Positions 47,437-52,446 are shown, numbered from the stretch's first letter. The stretch is 54,883 bases of DNA from Candidatus Nitrosotenuis sp. (GCA_004322465.1 SCVO01000077.1:1-54883); one strand, 5' to 3'. The notes: a model not told the origin generated them from the letters alone. Program-made: numbers and translations.

Positions 47437-47799
47437 TCAAGTGTTCCGGTACGTCTCTACTATTTCTTCAAGCAGTTCTGGGGCAAACGGCTTGAAAAGC
47501 ACTTTAGTTGGATTCAGTTCAGATAGTTTTTGCTCGCTGTCGCGTCTCAAGTCCGCTGTCACAATTATCACCTTTGCGTCTGGGTTGATTTTTCTTATCT
47601 TTTCAAGCGCGTAAAATCCGTCGTAATCTTCCATCATGAGATCCAAAAACACTAAATCGGGTTTATATTTTTCATAAAGTTCTACTGCATCTTTTCCACA
47701 GTAACCCTTTGCCAGAACATTCACGTTTAATATTTTCATATAATCAACAAAAACCTCGACGGTATCACGGTCATCATCAATTATGATTGCACTTATCAA
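47437..47799 (-). CDS. Single-domain response regulator (receiver)
   Basis: 120 residues from TTG 47799 with an intact receiver: D8-D10 (IIDDDRDT), D53 (LVFLDLMMEDYDGF), T81 (IIVTADL) and K103 (VLFKPF). It is a close paralogue of the receiver at 49099-49521 (shared GFYALE-IRKINP). It has no output domain. The TATA box (GGTTATTAAC, minus strand) is just downstream of a perfect palindrome that also occurs in front of the RHH gene at 51538, so this gene is probably under that regulator's control. Confidence 0.9.
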   Translation of the reverse strand: MISAIIIDDDRDTVEVFVDYMKILNVNVLAKGYCGKDAVELYEKYKPDLVFLDLMMEDYDGFYALEKIRKINPDAKVIIVTADLRRDSEQKLSELNPTKVLFKPFAPELLEEIVETYRNT

Positions 47800-47820: not shown

Positions 47821-47830
47821 AGTTAATAAC
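47821..47830 (-). promoter_or_regulatory. TATA box of the receiver gene
   Basis: GTTATTAACT on the minus strand lies 22-31 bases upstream of TTG 47799. It supports TTG as the start codon. Confidence 0.6.
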
Positions 47831-47833
47831 CTA

Positions 47834-47857
47834 CCAACTTCGATGAATCGAAGTTGG
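47834..47857. promoter_or_regulatory. Palindromic operator, site 1
   Basis: CCAACTTCGAT-GA-ATCGAAGTTGG is an inverted repeat with 11-bp perfect arms. It begins four bases upstream of the receiver TATA box. The 20-bp core AACTTCGAT..ATCGAAGTT recurs at 51479-51498. Confidence 0.75.
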
Positions 47858-48188
47858 AATAGTTCCCATTATTTTCTAAATATGATAAGATGGTAATACA
47901 GTATGAAGATATAAAACGACGATATGCATAGTTTAGCATTTTTTTGTGAAGAAAACTGTTGCAAGTTATAAAGTTTTGTCTGTCCATTTTAGACAAGTGA
48001 CTGCTGTTATGTTTTGAATGAACATTATAATCTGTGGAGTTTTTTGGCAATAAAAAAAACATAGGCTGCAAAAAACCAATACATGATAACGCAATAAACA
48101 AATCCTCAATGACGGTGCCATTTGGGAATTCACATAAATTTGTACATATGATCTTTTCAGGATCTGGCAAATTGGTGAGATATTAAAT
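47858..48188. other. AT-rich intergenic region
   Basis: About 330 bases between the receiver operator and the matrixin gene. Short frames on both strands (for example 47823-48170 minus) have no coding character. It should hold the matrixin promoter, but no TATA box is placed at the usual distance from TTG 48189. Confidence 0.4.
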
Positions 48189-49097
48189 TTGGAACAGGAG
48201 AAAATAATAGATCTTGAGCAGCAAAAGATCATATTTGCACATCTAACCAAGATAATGAAAAATAAAATAGAGATACTCGAAAACCAGAGAAATGTCGTAT
48301 CATATGCACTGGCTGCAAAAATCGCATCAGAGTCAAGCACAAAAACATCAAGAAACCGAATCAAGTTAAAAACGATTTATTGCATAACCGCATTCGCAAT
48401 CATTGCGTGCGGATCAGTCATCGCAATTAACCTAAAGTCAGATGATGCAGAGCCATTCAAGACAAGATACATGGTTGAAAATCTCAGGGGCGATACGGTA
48501 GACACGTGGAAATTTTGGAAGATCGATGCAGAGTCCACACTGGTTGTGAATATTATGAATTCAGGCATGGTCGGTGAGCATAAAATAAAGTCGATTAAAG
48601 ATGCCATTCTTTCAACGGACACGTTAAGCATGGATGACTCTATCACCCACAAGGGACTAGGCACCAGCTCAACTTACTTTGTCGGTTGGAAGGGAGCATT
48701 GGAGGAATCCTCGGCGATGAAAACCAAATACGTGATACCGACCAAATTCAAAATAATCGAATCCGAATCTGAAGTAGGAAATATAGTCATAAAACTATCC
48801 GCGCTAAAAGACCAGGACGGCTATTCAGGATTTACAAAGTCAACAGTTGACGGAAATGAAATCCTCAAGTCACAGATTGTCATTTATGACGCAGGCAGTC
48901 TTTCTGATGATGGACTTGAGGCAATAGTAAGGCATGAGTTTGGCCATGCCCTTGGTCTTGGCCATTCGACAGCGCCTGAAGATCTTATGGCACCTACCAT
49001 AAGCATGCAAGTCCCATACATTTCCGAATGTGATATTGGTGCAGTTTCTCAGCTGTATGATGGAGTGACAATGGACAAAACAGTGTGCACGAAATAA
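48189..49097 (+). CDS. Membrane-anchored matrixin-like metalloprotease
   Basis: 302 residues. The N-terminal ~60 residues are a cytosolic coiled-coil-like part, followed by one membrane helix (about 62-82, TIYCITAFAIIACGSVIAINL) and an outer catalytic domain. The zinc motif HEFGHALGLGH (H249, E250, H253, H259) is followed by DLMAP, the Met-turn, as in M10 matrixins. It should cut proteins outside the membrane. The cytosolic coil might receive signals. The start is uncertain because TATA-like GATATTAAAT lies right before TTG 48189. The receiver gene 49099 begins one base after its stop. Confidence 0.85.
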   Translation: MEQEKIIDLEQQKIIFAHLTKIMKNKIEILENQRNVVSYALAAKIASESSTKTSRNRIKLKTIYCITAFAIIACGSVIAINLKSDDAEPFKTRYMVENLRGDTVDTWKFWKIDAESTLVVNIMNSGMVGEHKIKSIKDAILSTDTLSMDDSITHKGLGTSSTYFVGWKGALEESSAMKTKYVIPTKFKIIESESEVGNIVIKLSALKDQDGYSGFTKSTVDGNEILKSQIVIYDAGSLSDDGLEAIVRHEFGHALGLGHSTAPEDLMAPTISMQVPYISECDIGAVSQLYDGVTMDKTVCTK

Positions 49098-49098
49098 G

Positions 49099-49521
49099 AT
49101 GAAAGGTGCTGGCCTGACTGCAATCATTGTTGATGATGACTATAACACGGTTGTAACTTTTACTGACATTCTTGAGTTTAATGGAATAAGAGTGGTAGGA
49201 ACCGGATACACTGGAAAAGACGCCGTAAAGATGTATGAAAAACTGCGACCAAACGTAGTTTTTTTGGACGTCATGATGCCCAAACCACATGACGGGTTTT
49301 ACGCGCTTGAAAATATTCGAAAAATAAATCCTAATGCTACAGTAATCATGATCACGGCAGATCTTACGGTAGAGACAGAGGACAGATTGCAAAATCTATG
49401 CGCTCACGCTATCGTGTACAAGCCTTTTGATATTAAGAAAATACTTCAGATACTAGATGAAATGATGACAAAAAATATCAGAACTGTGAAAGCGATCCAT
49501 GATAAACAGAATCTTGCTTAA
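49099..49521 (+). CDS. Single-domain response regulator, cotranscribed with matrixin
   Basis: 140 residues with a full receiver: D12-D14 (IIVDDDYNT), D57 (VVFLDVMMPKPHDGF), T86 (IMITADL) and K108 (AIVYKPF). It shares GFYALENIRKINPN with the receiver at 47437-47799. It starts one base after the matrixin stop, so the two are translated from one transcript and may act together. The C-terminal tail of about 25 residues (DEMMTKNIRTVKAIHDKQNLA) has no domain. Confidence 0.9.
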   Translation: MKGAGLTAIIVDDDYNTVVTFTDILEFNGIRVVGTGYTGKDAVKMYEKLRPNVVFLDVMMPKPHDGFYALENIRKINPNATVIMITADLTVETEDRLQNLCAHAIVYKPFDIKKILQILDEMMTKNIRTVKAIHDKQNLA

Positions 49522-49604
49522 TTTGTTTTTCTGGTAATGTCAAATTTGTGGATTGTTACTTGCGGTTTTGTCAATTGGATTTCAAACACGTCGTATCTAA
49601 AATT

Positions 49605-49673
49605 TAAAAAATAGTTGCACCCTGAAACTTTTAGCCCGTGTTCCTTGGTCCGTCCAGCGGATGAGTCAATCCA
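49605..49673 (-). repeat. Copy 2 of the ~70-bp repeated element
   Basis: This is the second copy of the element at 47247-47316, in the same orientation. On the minus strand GGAT/ATCC and CCG/CGG stems are kept. AGTT pairs with AACT across a 9-base loop, followed by ATTTTTT. The corresponding frame (WIDSSAGRTKEHGLKVS) is open to 49522 but lacks a start codon, so protein coding is unproven. Confidence 0.65.
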
Positions 49674-49757
49674 CGTGTGAATTTTAGATATTTACGTTAT
49701 GTTCATCCAGTTTTCAACAGAAAAACTAAACATGTTTTCGTATAATCGATGATCTAT

Positions 49758-49767
49758 CTTATTAAAC
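49758..49767 (+). promoter_or_regulatory. TATA box setting the start at 49787
   Basis: CTTATTAAAC lies 20-29 bases upstream of ATG 49787 and supports it over the track start at 49772. Confidence 0.65.
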
Positions 49768-49786
49768 AAACTTGCAGGATACAGGC

Positions 49787-50176
49787 ATGTCATCTATTGA
49801 GATGATGTGCAATACAGAAAGGCTTCAAAAGATGATGGCGACTGCAGGAATAGAACTGTTCGGAATTATCAACAAAAACGGCAGAATATTGGACGCGTGG
49901 AGTAGAAAGGATCTCCGTATTTCAAAAGAAAAAAAAGAGATTTTGTTTATGCAGATTGCACTCCAGAGCTCCATGCAGCGCGATTTTGATGAGGATCTTG
50001 GGACGGTGAGTTTTTGCATGATCAAGCGCGAGAAATTAAGATTCATCTATCGTCCAATCGGCCTAGGCAACACGGCCCTAGTTGTTACGAACAAAAATAA
50101 TGATAAAAATGATTTCAGATTAATTGACGACCTGTGCAAGATATACAGTTCTGAAATGCAGGGGGAAGACTGCTGA
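49787..50176 (+). CDS. Roadblock-like small protein (DUF6659-like)
   Basis: ATG 49787 gives 129 residues. The sequence GIELFGIINKNGRILDAWSRKDLRISKEKKEILFMQIALQSSMQRDFDEDLGTVSFCMIKREKLRFIYRPIGLGNTALVVTNKN looks like a roadblock/LC7-type alpha-beta sandwich and resembles a thaumarchaeal family I recall as DUF6659. Roadblock proteins often work with small GTPases or signalling modules. It is followed one base later by a zinc-ribbon gene. Confidence 0.7.
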   Translation: MSSIEMMCNTERLQKMMATAGIELFGIINKNGRILDAWSRKDLRISKEKKEILFMQIALQSSMQRDFDEDLGTVSFCMIKREKLRFIYRPIGLGNTALVVTNKNNDKNDFRLIDDLCKIYSSEMQGEDC

Positions 50177-50177
50177 T

Positions 50178-50363
50178 ATGAACATTTACGACAAAAGGGT
50201 CATCAGCTGCAGTAAATGTGATAGGTACATAGGCGAAGTAGATTATGACGCAGAAATCATTTTGCCAAAATGCGGCAAATGTGCAAACCCAATACCATCC
50301 ATGCCAGATGACGTAGAACGTATTTTCAAATCCAACAACAAAGAAATCGTTGTACTTCATTGA
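50178..50363 (+). CDS. Small zinc-ribbon protein (61 aa)
   Basis: ATG 50178 gives MNIYDKRVISCSKCDRYIGE followed by CGKC, two CxxC pairs separated by about 20 residues. The track start at 50124 overlaps the upstream gene by 53 bases and lacks support. It follows the roadblock-like gene by one base and is probably cotranslated. It may be a partner or nucleic-acid-binding accessory. Confidence 0.75.
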   Translation: MNIYDKRVISCSKCDRYIGEVDYDAEIILPKCGKCANPIPSMPDDVERIFKSNNKEIVVLH

Positions 50364-50409
50364 TAAAAATAATTAAAAATCAAGTGACTTGAGTTTGATT
50401 CATATCACA

Positions 50410-50514
50410 TCACTTGACATGATCACCAGAACTATGTGAGGACGTCTTCAGTATTCTTAGAAGAGCTTTGTTTGTCCTCGTTCTGCGGTTGGGATTTGGA
50501 GCGCCGTAATTTCA
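50410..50514 (-). CDS. Candidate 34-aa ORF with a perfect Shine-Dalgarno
   Basis: TTG 50514 opens MKLRRSKSQPQNEDKQSSLR, a basic, Ser-rich peptide, ending at TGA 50410-50412. AAGGAGGTG (minus strand, 520-528 of this kilobase) lies five bases upstream and matches the anti-SD of 16S rRNA fully. A TATA-like TTATATTT (50549-50556) is about 26 bases before the SD. No homologue is recognised, so it remains a candidate. Confidence 0.35.
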
Positions 50515-50677
50515 ATTCAACACCTCCTTGTTACGGGATGTCATTTTGAAATATAACGATCGATTAACTTTGTTACTGAGCAAATGATTAGCAAGTTTTT
50601 TAAAGTCGCCAAATCAGGTTTTCAGTTTTATTTGTGTATAGGAGGTCAATCACAGATCATACGATAAAAATCAGTCA

Positions 50678-51028
50678 TTAGTTAGCGCTAAAGACGATTT
50701 CTTTTTTCATCGCCCACTTGATCAGCGGGGAGCTTGCAACTATTAGGTCGATTCCCTTTCTAGTTATGCGATATTCCACTTTGAATGGGGGAGTCTTCCC
50801 ATATCTGGTACTCGTTATCAAGCCATCACTTTCCAAGCTTTTCAAGGTAGATGAGAGGGTGGACGGCGAAATTCCGGCAAGAGACGCCAACAATTCGTTA
50901 AATCTCATTTTGCTGTTATTGCGCAATTCCCAGATCACCCCAAAATTCGATCGCTTACCCACAAAACTGCTCACCTTGCCAAGATACGGTCTAACATAGT
51001 CAGACTGTTCAGTAGAAAACACTTTCAT
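50678..51028 (-). CDS. HxlR-family winged-helix regulator
   Basis: 116 residues with the HxlR/MarR-like pattern FVGKRSNFGVIWELRNNSKMRFNELLASLAGISPSTLSSTLKSLESDGLITSTRYGKTPPFKVEYRITRKGIDLI. The GK-x-W-x-IL-like start of HxlR is changed to GKRSNFGVIWEL. Such proteins are dimeric DNA-binding regulators of stress or detoxification genes. The N-terminal 20 residues are an extra arm. No clear operator is seen nearby. It is downstream of gene 51068-51346 on the same strand. Confidence 0.82.
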   Translation of the reverse strand: MKVFSTEQSDYVRPYLGKVSSFVGKRSNFGVIWELRNNSKMRFNELLASLAGISPSTLSSTLKSLESDGLITSTRYGKTPPFKVEYRITRKGIDLIVASSPLIKWAMKKEIVFSAN

Positions 51029-51067
51029 GTCCTTGCCATGGATTGTCCTTATTTTTAAGAGTAGTCT

Positions 51068-51346
51068 TTAACCCCTTAGCACATTTAGGAAATCTTGGAC
51101 TTCTTTTTCGGATGTCATTTCTCCCAGTTCATTTTCCAAATCATCTATTATTTTACCATAAGAATTTTCATAAACGTCCTTCAGTGTGTTTTTTAGGTAT
51201 TCGGGATGGTCAAAACAGTCAGTGATTTTACAGTTATAGTCTCTTTCCAGTCTTGAAAGCACTGAGAAGTATTGCGGCCCGTTAATTCGCATCAGAACAA
51301 CTTCAATGGAAATTGCAACTAATGCTTTGAGATTATTGTCCGACAT
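51068..51346 (-). CDS. Hypothetical helical protein (92 aa)
   Basis: No recognised domain. The sequence is helical and acidic (IDDLENELGEMTSEKEVQDFLNVL) and has one pair of cysteines (YNCKITDCFDH). It resembles regulators' accessory proteins only in size. It lies upstream of the HxlR gene on the same strand, 40 bases apart, so a shared transcript is possible. Confidence 0.6.
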   Translation of the reverse strand: MSDNNLKALVAISIEVVLMRINGPQYFSVLSRLERDYNCKITDCFDHPEYLKNTLKDVYENSYGKIIDDLENELGEMTSEKEVQDFLNVLRG

Positions 51347-51478
51347 ACGCGTTTAACATAAAATCAGCATACAATAGATAGGAGTTGATCATTTAGCACA
51401 CACAACTTTACGCCTACGGGATATTTACATTTTCAAATGTTATTCAAATATTCAGAGTCAAAATCAGACAATCAATTG

Positions 51479-51498
51479 AACTTCGATACGTCGAAGTT
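51479..51498. promoter_or_regulatory. Palindromic operator, site 2
   Basis: AACTTCGATACGTCGAAGTT matches site 1 (47836-47855) at 17 of 20 positions, both outer arms being identical. It ends four bases before the TATA box of the RHH gene, the same spacing as at site 1. Confidence 0.75.
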
Positions 51499-51502
51499 TA
51501 CA

Positions 51503-51512
51503 TGTTAAATAA
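51503..51512 (+). promoter_or_regulatory. TATA box of the RHH gene
   Basis: TGTTAAATAA lies 26-35 bases upstream of ATG 51538, predicting a leader of only a few bases. Confidence 0.55.
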
Positions 51513-51537: not shown

Positions 51538-51738
51538 ATGGTAAAAAAACGAATAACTATTACGCTTGATAAAGAATTTGATGAAAAAATCCGTCAGTTA
51601 CAAGTTGATTTTATTATGAAATCAAACAAAAGTTGGAGCTACTCATCGGTACTGAGCGTAGTTATTGGCGAGGGCCTGAGGGCTCTGAGCCACAAAACAA
51701 AGAGCGCAAAAGACGAAAAGCCATCAAAAAAACAGTGA
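51538..51738 (+). CDS. Ribbon-helix-helix (CopG/Arc-type) regulator
   Basis: 66 residues. KRITITLDKEFDEKIRQLQVDFIMKSNKSWSYSSVLSVVIGEGL has the RHH layout: a beta strand (RITITL) for DNA contact, helix A and helix B, with a Lys-rich tail. RHH dimers bind palindromic operators. The palindrome just upstream of its own TATA box suggests autorepression, and the same site precedes the receiver gene at 47799. The 3' end overlaps a possible small frame by four bases (GTGA). Confidence 0.82.
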   Translation: MVKKRITITLDKEFDEKIRQLQVDFIMKSNKSWSYSSVLSVVIGEGLRALSHKTKSAKDEKPSKKQ

Positions 51739-51818
51739 TTGAAAGCATGGCTCACGCAGGGATAAAAACACATCCGGCAGTCGTGATAGACGACAAGAAT
51801 GTCATCTACCTTTTTTGA
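51735..51818 (+). pseudogene. 27-aa frame coupled to RHH by GTGA overlap, perhaps decayed
   Basis: GTG 51735 overlaps the RHH stop (GTGA) and opens MIESMAHAGIKTHPAVVIDDKNVIYLF, ending at TGA. The same frame stays open after the stop for 47 codons (VSKDDTSATGTSRDSKSALE...) to TAG near 51961. This looks like one longer gene broken by an in-frame stop, or a short coupled peptide. No family is assigned; the KTHPAVVIDDKNVIY part only vaguely recalls thioredoxin-like or PAS strands. Confidence 0.35.
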
Positions 51819-52057
51819 GTATCAAAAGATGATACAAGTGCCACAGGAACCAGTCGGGACAGCAAAAGTGCTCTAGAACCAAATACTGCAAAATCCACTA
51901 GAGGTTACAAAAATGCGGAATCGGCGGATGATCTCAAAAGCGCAAAACAGGCCCTAAACTAGAATCATCAGAGCCTAGATGTCCACCTAGACACAAAAAA
52001 TGCATTAAAACACATGTGTGTTGCCAAGATATCTCATAGAACGATTGTTACGCAAAA
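51819..52057. other. Region with remnant frame, otherwise non-coding
   Basis: The first ~140 bases continue the frame of the preceding small ORF after its stop and have Ser/Lys/Ala-rich codons. The rest, to 52057, shows no ORF. It ends at the TATA-like box of the secreted protein at 52090. Confidence 0.4.
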
Positions 52058-52067
52058 TTTTTTAATT
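52058..52067 (+). promoter_or_regulatory. TATA box of the secreted protein at 52090
   Basis: TTTTTTAATT lies 23-32 bases upstream of TTG 52090 and supports a leaderless TTG start. Confidence 0.55.
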
Positions 52068-52089
52068 GCCGTTTTAGAGAATTTACGAA

Positions 52090-52446
52090 TTGAAGATAAT
52101 AGCAATAGCATCATTGGTCTTGTTTGCAATGCTTTTTTCTGCACCGTTTAGTCACGCATTTGCAGAATCTGTGCCTACAAAGATGGATGTAAAGTCAATC
52201 ATGACCACATACCAGTTAGCAATAGAAAAAGCCAGATCCGACTTCAAGGCGGCAATTGACAAATCACAGGCAGACGCAAAAAGCGCAATCTCAAAAGGAA
52301 TACCAACTGACAAGATCAACGCAGACTCCAAGACAGCGATCGACAAGGCAAGACTAGACTACAAGATTGCATTGAAAAAAGCCAAGACAGATTCAAGGAC
52401 CAGTCTAGACCAAATTAAAGCCGCAATCAATACCAAATCAAAGTAG
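52090..52446 (+). CDS. Secreted Lys/Ala-rich helical protein
   Basis: 118 residues from TTG 52090 with a signal peptide (MKIIAIASLVLFAMLFSAPFSHAFAE). The mature part has repeated helical units of about 20-22 residues (YQLAIEKARSDFKAAIDKSQADAKSAISKG, ADSKTAIDKARLDYKIALKKAKTDSRTSLDQIKAAI). It resembles the secreted coils at 4639 and 5454 in design. Its function may be structural at the cell surface. Confidence 0.75.
   Translation: MKIIAIASLVLFAMLFSAPFSHAFAESVPTKMDVKSIMTTYQLAIEKARSDFKAAIDKSQADAKSAISKGIPTDKINADSKTAIDKARLDYKIALKKAKTDSRTSLDQIKAAINTKSK

Follow-up and report, generated by a model that had tools for sequence, protein, structure and literature searches.

A BRE-adjacent palindrome as the probable operator of a very small ribbon-helix-helix regulon in Candidatus Nitrosotenuis

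Small autoregulated regulons with a palindrome adjoining the TFB recognition element (BRE) are a known type in archaea, and we describe here what is probably a further one, recognised by a palindrome that stands at the same distance from the TATA element in two promoters of a 54,883-nucleotide stretch of Candidatus Nitrosotenuis sp. (GCA_004322465.1 SCVO01000077.1:1-54883), which as a whole is referred to below as the window. One of the promoters precedes a stand-alone receiver gene, for which we use the local label recA, and the other precedes the gene for a 66-aa protein of the ribbon-helix-helix (RHH) type. The genus Nitrosotenuis comprises soil and freshwater ammonia-oxidising archaea.

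Among the closest described systems is TFB-RF1 of Pyrococcus furiosus, which has two targets including itself and recruits TFB from a palindrome whose distance to the weak BRE immediately downstream is conserved (PMC5937170). The locus described here would likewise be a small, autoregulated regulon with two genomic targets, its palindrome lying immediately upstream of BRE and TATA at a conserved distance that emerges from aligned orthologous promoters (PMC5937170). The TFB-RF1 palindrome is a different one, TCTGAANTTCAGA, and its activation and TFB recruitment have been shown experimentally, whereas the Nitrosotenuis system is predicted from sequence. In haloarchaea, the upstream activating sequence (UAS) of GvpE is 20 nt long, with 4 unimportant nt between its two 8-nt parts; it adjoins the BRE, and this close distance is essential (PMC4390858). 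The same 8-4-8 layout beside the BRE is found in the Nitrosotenuis sites (PMC4390858), although there the element is a perfect inverted repeat, and GvpE is a leucine-zipper-like protein that serves gas-vesicle genes.

Very small RHH proteins acting at inverted or tandem repeats in the promoter of their own gene and a small number of further promoters are also represented by the viral SvtR, AvtR and F55 (PMC5569661), but these are viral and mostly repressors, whereas the Nitrosotenuis RHH gene has a conserved chromosomal neighbourhood. Haloarchaeal CdrS is a small RHH-domain regulator reported to be an activator, and for CdrL a single region of the genome is reproducibly targeted (PMC7439475). 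In these respects the two resemble the present case, but their targets are cell-division genes, in contrast to the RHH gene itself and REC-only receivers as predicted for Nitrosotenuis. With regard to the receivers, the stand-alone type accounts for about three quarters of the response regulators of thaumarchaea, and for most of these no conserved neighbourhood is available to suggest a function (PMC5847659). The recA gene belongs to this abundant class (PMC5847659) but differs in that it appears to have a linked regulator and an operator that is both dedicated and conserved.

The two promoters and the genes behind them comprise the following features, with coordinates counted from the first nucleotide of the window.

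47437-47799, minus strand: recA, stand-alone REC-only receiver, 120 aa, TTG start (open reading frame, PF00072 at 1.6e-20, orthologs)
47822-47829, minus strand: receiver promoter, TATA-like element TTATTAAC (unchanged across 4 orthologs)
47830-47835, minus strand: 6-bp spacer of the receiver promoter at the BRE position, GGTAGG on this strand (promoter alignments)
47834-47857, no strand: site 1, 24-bp palindrome CCAACTTCGAT-GA-ATCGAAGTTGG (sequence, pattern search, whole-genome search)
47836-47855, no strand: site 1 core, 20 bp, AACTTCGATGAATCGAAGTT (within the 24-bp palindrome)
51479-51498, no strand: site 2, 20-bp palindrome AACTTCGATACGTCGAAGTT (sequence, pattern search, whole-genome search)
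51499-51504, plus strand: 6-bp spacer of the RHH promoter at the BRE position, TACATG (promoter alignments)
51505-51512, plus strand: RHH promoter, TATA element TTAAATAA (unchanged across 9 orthologs)
51538-51738, plus strand: RHH-type DNA-binding protein, 66 aa, proposed binder and autoregulator (open reading frame, orthologs, invariant strand residues, AlphaFold2 model)

Both sites had been picked out in an original prediction made from the window, and their sequences and coordinates match the window exactly, site 1 lying before a receiver gene (PF00072) and site 2 before a gene for a 66-aa RHH-like protein, as had been proposed. No further copy had been noticed in the window, and among its inverted repeats these two are indeed the only ones with perfect 8-bp arms around a 4-bp spacer. 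When up to 3 mismatches were allowed the pattern gave 5 strand-matches in the window, compared to 0.13 expected per shuffled window, and none of the shuffles reached 5. The source assembly (1.68 Mb, 126 contigs, 91.7% complete) holds exactly 2 copies of the 20-bp core, AACTTCGA-N4-TCGAAGTT, and no third copy at up to 2 mismatches. At each site the core lies upstream of the TATA-like octamer with a gap of 6 bp, so the equal spacing that had been claimed is borne out, but the claimed value of four bases is not; it came from counting with the 24-bp palindrome at site 1 and with the TATA register shifted at site 2. The RHH gene starts 40 bp downstream of site 2, and the TTG start codon of recA is 30 bp from its TATA element. 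Local promoters have their peak of AT content at -30 to -24 relative to the start codon, which is consistent with leaderless transcripts.

For comparison we used 17 Candidatus Nitrosotenuis genomes at the level of the genus and 400 genomes at the level of the order. An ortholog of the RHH gene is present in 9 of the 17, the genome of the window counted in, and the other eight proteins are 54-67% identical to that of the window; named relatives are found in Candidatus Nitrosotenuis chungbukensis MY2 and in groundwater or lake thaumarchaeal genomes. In every one of the nine the palindrome stands directly upstream of the RHH gene in the same arrangement, namely the end of the core, 6 bp, TTAAATAA and the start codon. 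In the aligned RHH promoters the columns of the palindrome have a mean conservation of 0.89 and those of the TATA element one of 1.0, as compared to 0.51 for the upstream flank (60 bp), and within the palindrome the inner arm parts CTTCGA and CGAAGTT do not vary among the orthologs while the central bases do. Autoregulation predicts an operator at the regulator's own promoter, and the conservation in all nine orthologs fits this prediction.

The composite of palindrome and TATA element is specific as well. With up to 1 mismatch the order yields 12 matches, 9 at RHH promoters and 3 at receiver promoters, all in this one genus, and with up to 3 mismatches it is confined within the genus, reverse readings aside, to RHH promoters in 9 genomes and receiver promoters in 3; the eight genus genomes without an RHH ortholog are devoid of it at that threshold. 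The exact composite site was not found in viral contigs. Palindromes scattered through coding regions, which the original prediction had named as grounds for abandoning the idea, are thus the opposite of what both the genus and the order contain. Palindromes at 2 mismatches occur in the genus at about control frequency and were not used. Outside the two promoters, a single-mismatch palindrome, ACTTCAATAATTCGAAGT, lies isolated and intergenic at L086:6402-6419 of one genome (G111) that has no RHH ortholog, and we treated it as chance. Palindromes can of course arise randomly, as this copy in a genome without an RHH protein of that kind might illustrate, but a chance or otherwise non-regulatory origin of the two sites is extremely improbable in view of their uniqueness in the whole genome, their promoter position and their conservation in up to nine species. 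A terminator or hairpin was rejected, given that the palindrome is upstream of the TATA element in promoters that look leaderless, and that no T-run is present.

At the receiver promoter the palindrome adjoins the TATA-like TTATTAAC in all four true recA orthologs, that of the window included. Close orthologs, with 60-85% identity to the recA of the window, are restricted to three further genomes (G088, G082 and G062), and the receiver paralogs of other genus genomes (about 50-62% identity) have no palindrome at their promoters. The product appears complete as a receiver: PF00072 covers residues 5-114 of 120, and the translation contains DDD near the N-terminus, the D of FLDLMM, the T of VTAD and the K of FKPF, which supply the phospho-acceptor Asp, the acidic pocket, the Thr and the Lys. 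A matrixin-like (M10) peptidase gene followed directly by a second receiver gene, recB (48189-49521), is kept beside recA in G088 and G082; there recA is in tandem with this pair, and in the window it is inverted. The orientation of recA differs while the palindrome is kept, so that the promoter has moved together with the gene.

We consider it likely that the palindrome is the operator of a very small autoregulated regulon with the RHH protein as its binder, irrespective of whether the effect is positive or negative. The original prediction, in which the RHH protein controls itself and the receiver, is in this respect supported by the conservation at all nine of its own promoters and by the confinement of the sites to promoters; we infer both the binder and the effect on transcription. 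In this model RCTTCGA-N5-CGAAGYT would be the operator of the 66-aa protein, probably occupied by two RHH dimers, one per half-site, the centres of the half-sites being about one helical turn apart, and the protein would control its own promoter together with that of recA.

Several observations weigh against this model. The gap at the receiver promoter is 6 bp in three of the four orthologs and 5 bp in G088. Five relatives (G076, G034, G017, G094 and G050) have the RHH site without the site at receiver recA, so the receiver would not be an obligatory target. Lastly, the RHH gene has conserved divergent neighbours, one of which encodes a DNA-binding protein.

50678-51028, minus strand: HxlR-family regulator, adjoining o92, rival binder (PF01638 at 1.6e-15; orthologs in the same 9 genomes)
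51068-51346, minus strand: o92, 92 aa, conserved divergent neighbour and possible additional target (synteny in 9 of 9 genomes; no Pfam match)

This pair (50678-51346) is divergent from the RHH gene in all nine palindrome-bearing genomes, and HxlR orthologs, at ortholog-level identity, occur in exactly the nine genomes that bear RHH, so phyletic co-occurrence failed as a means of excluding HxlR. Alternatively, then, the HxlR-family regulator, as a member of a DNA-binding family and always near the RHH gene, might bind the palindrome and regulate its divergent RHH neighbour as well as the receiver. However, the 70 bp upstream of the HxlR gene contain no such palindrome in the 9 genomes, and the site keeps its position relative to the RHH TATA box but to neither HxlR nor o92. 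An own promoter without the site, combined with a site locked to the RHH TATA box, makes the RHH protein the better candidate, and we regard HxlR as an unlikely binder. The idea that HxlR is broken in G034 and G094 was rejected, as the in-frame stops are at the ends of matched stretches; o92 appears shortened in G094. In the five genomes that lack the receiver site the sole palindrome is the one between o92 and RHH, and o92-HxlR may thus be a further target.

The RHH protein of the window, which we continue to favour as the binder, has no Pfam match, no useful NCBIfam match and no match by sequence in the PDB, and its orthologs give weak profile matches to RHH_3 (4 of 6, best E 0.042) and RHH_1 (2, at 0.12). 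An AlphaFold2 model built from 11 sequences (predicted local distance difference test score, pLDDT, 83) has residues 1-11 extended and helices at 12-29 and 35-58; the monomer is without an assigned strand, in keeping with a strand that pairs between monomers. The best structural matches of the model (VIA) are mostly RHH proteins, with the TraM N-terminal domain first (Z 6.9) and PutA (4.7), CopA_SO (4.7) and Arc (4.0) also among them, every Z being below 8, and Foldseek returned no significant match (E-values above 1). The model thus points to an RHH-like layout. In the putative strand K3, K4, R5, T7 and T9 are invariant among the aligned palindrome-bearing orthologs, and distant relatives in Nitrosarchaeum and Nitrosopumilus have RVTIMID instead of KRxTxT and no upstream palindrome. 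G088 also has a degenerate second copy of the RHH gene (L103:5900-6240) with stops and shifted frames, in which the TATA-like sequence is kept and the palindrome is absent.

How the RHH protein might act is suggested by the geometry of the site, which ends exactly where the BRE begins. We slightly favour activation, with the RHH protein recruiting TFB and thereby regulating itself positively, over occlusion of the BRE. This leaning is due to the site ending where the BRE of TFB begins, with the helical phase unchanged between two promoters that otherwise differ, and there is a precedent in the TrmB family, where activation is associated with a site upstream of BRE/TATA and repression with one downstream of TATA (PMC4158304). 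The characterised archaeal viral RHH proteins, being mostly repressors by occlusion, speak against the activation part (PMC5569661). For instance, SvtR and F55 bind their own promoters and repress in that way (PMC5569661), and a tetramer on a palindrome abutting the 6-bp BRE position could have a footprint that overlaps the BRE. The RHH protein may instead, although we find this somewhat doubtful, be a repressor of its own gene and of the receiver gene that sits on the BRE and keeps TFB away, until some signal, possibly a ligand or the receiver itself, lifts the repression. However, other archaeal repressors usually have their sites on the TATA element or start site or downstream, an upstream-of-BRE position going with activation (PMC4158304), and a 6-bp phase kept strictly by two promoters that are not related would fit a protein contact better than occlusion. 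The strength of the core promoters was also considered as a criterion and dropped, as two runs of BRE/TATA weight matrices were not reproducible: the two profiles, for which 93-94 local promoters served as the training set, did not agree and their consensus motifs differed between runs.

The link between the proposed RHH regulator and receivers might not be limited to recA. Another receiver gene, recC, lies closely 3' of the RHH gene in G088, G082 and G076, so that in some relatives the RHH protein may also control a second receiver from within its own operon. It is intact in G088 and G076, and the G082 copy (L036:780-1133, minus strand) has a single in-frame TAG, which makes it either a pseudogene or the product of a sequencing error. 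In the window a candidate remnant occupies the corresponding position.

51780-51915, plus strand: probable recC remnant (collinear tblastn fragments, recC synteny in relatives)

It consists of three collinear fragments in shifted frames, VVIDDKNVIYLF, FFEYQKMIQV and NQILQNPLEVTKM (tblastn E 0.002-0.03 in a 365-bp search), and its similarity at the DNA level falls within the range of shuffles; recC has probably decayed here downstream of RHH, as the weak fragment matches hint. The recA site and the recC gene behind RHH in some species suggest that one and the same operator precedes a single receiver in some species and two in others. With recC in the RHH operon and recA under the same operator, it is tempting to speculate that the receivers bind the RHH protein in a phosphorylation-dependent manner, and that the latter is the DNA-binding output module of a response regulator, split off as a separate protein through which receivers without an output domain control transcription in a feedback loop, but we hold this to be improbable. 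Further along, the stretch 52040-52090 (TTGTTACGCAAAATTTTTTAATTGCC...), which precedes a 118-aa open reading frame at 52090, has a nearly identical counterpart in G088, and this suggests another conserved promoter element.

While the type of regulon is known, this RHH member, its operator and the link to stand-alone receivers appear to be new in the literature searched, a limited open-access selection in which no paper was found that defined a regulon by phylogenetic footprinting in ammonia-oxidising archaea. Candidatus Nitrosotenuis is genetically hard to handle, and the 66-aa protein and two short promoters represent easy subjects for study in vitro. Should the RHH protein prove to be an activator, GvpE and TFB-RF1 would have in it a counterpart of the RHH type. 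Our analysis ties a receiver of a kind that usually comes without context to a specific candidate operator and a linked regulator in several species.

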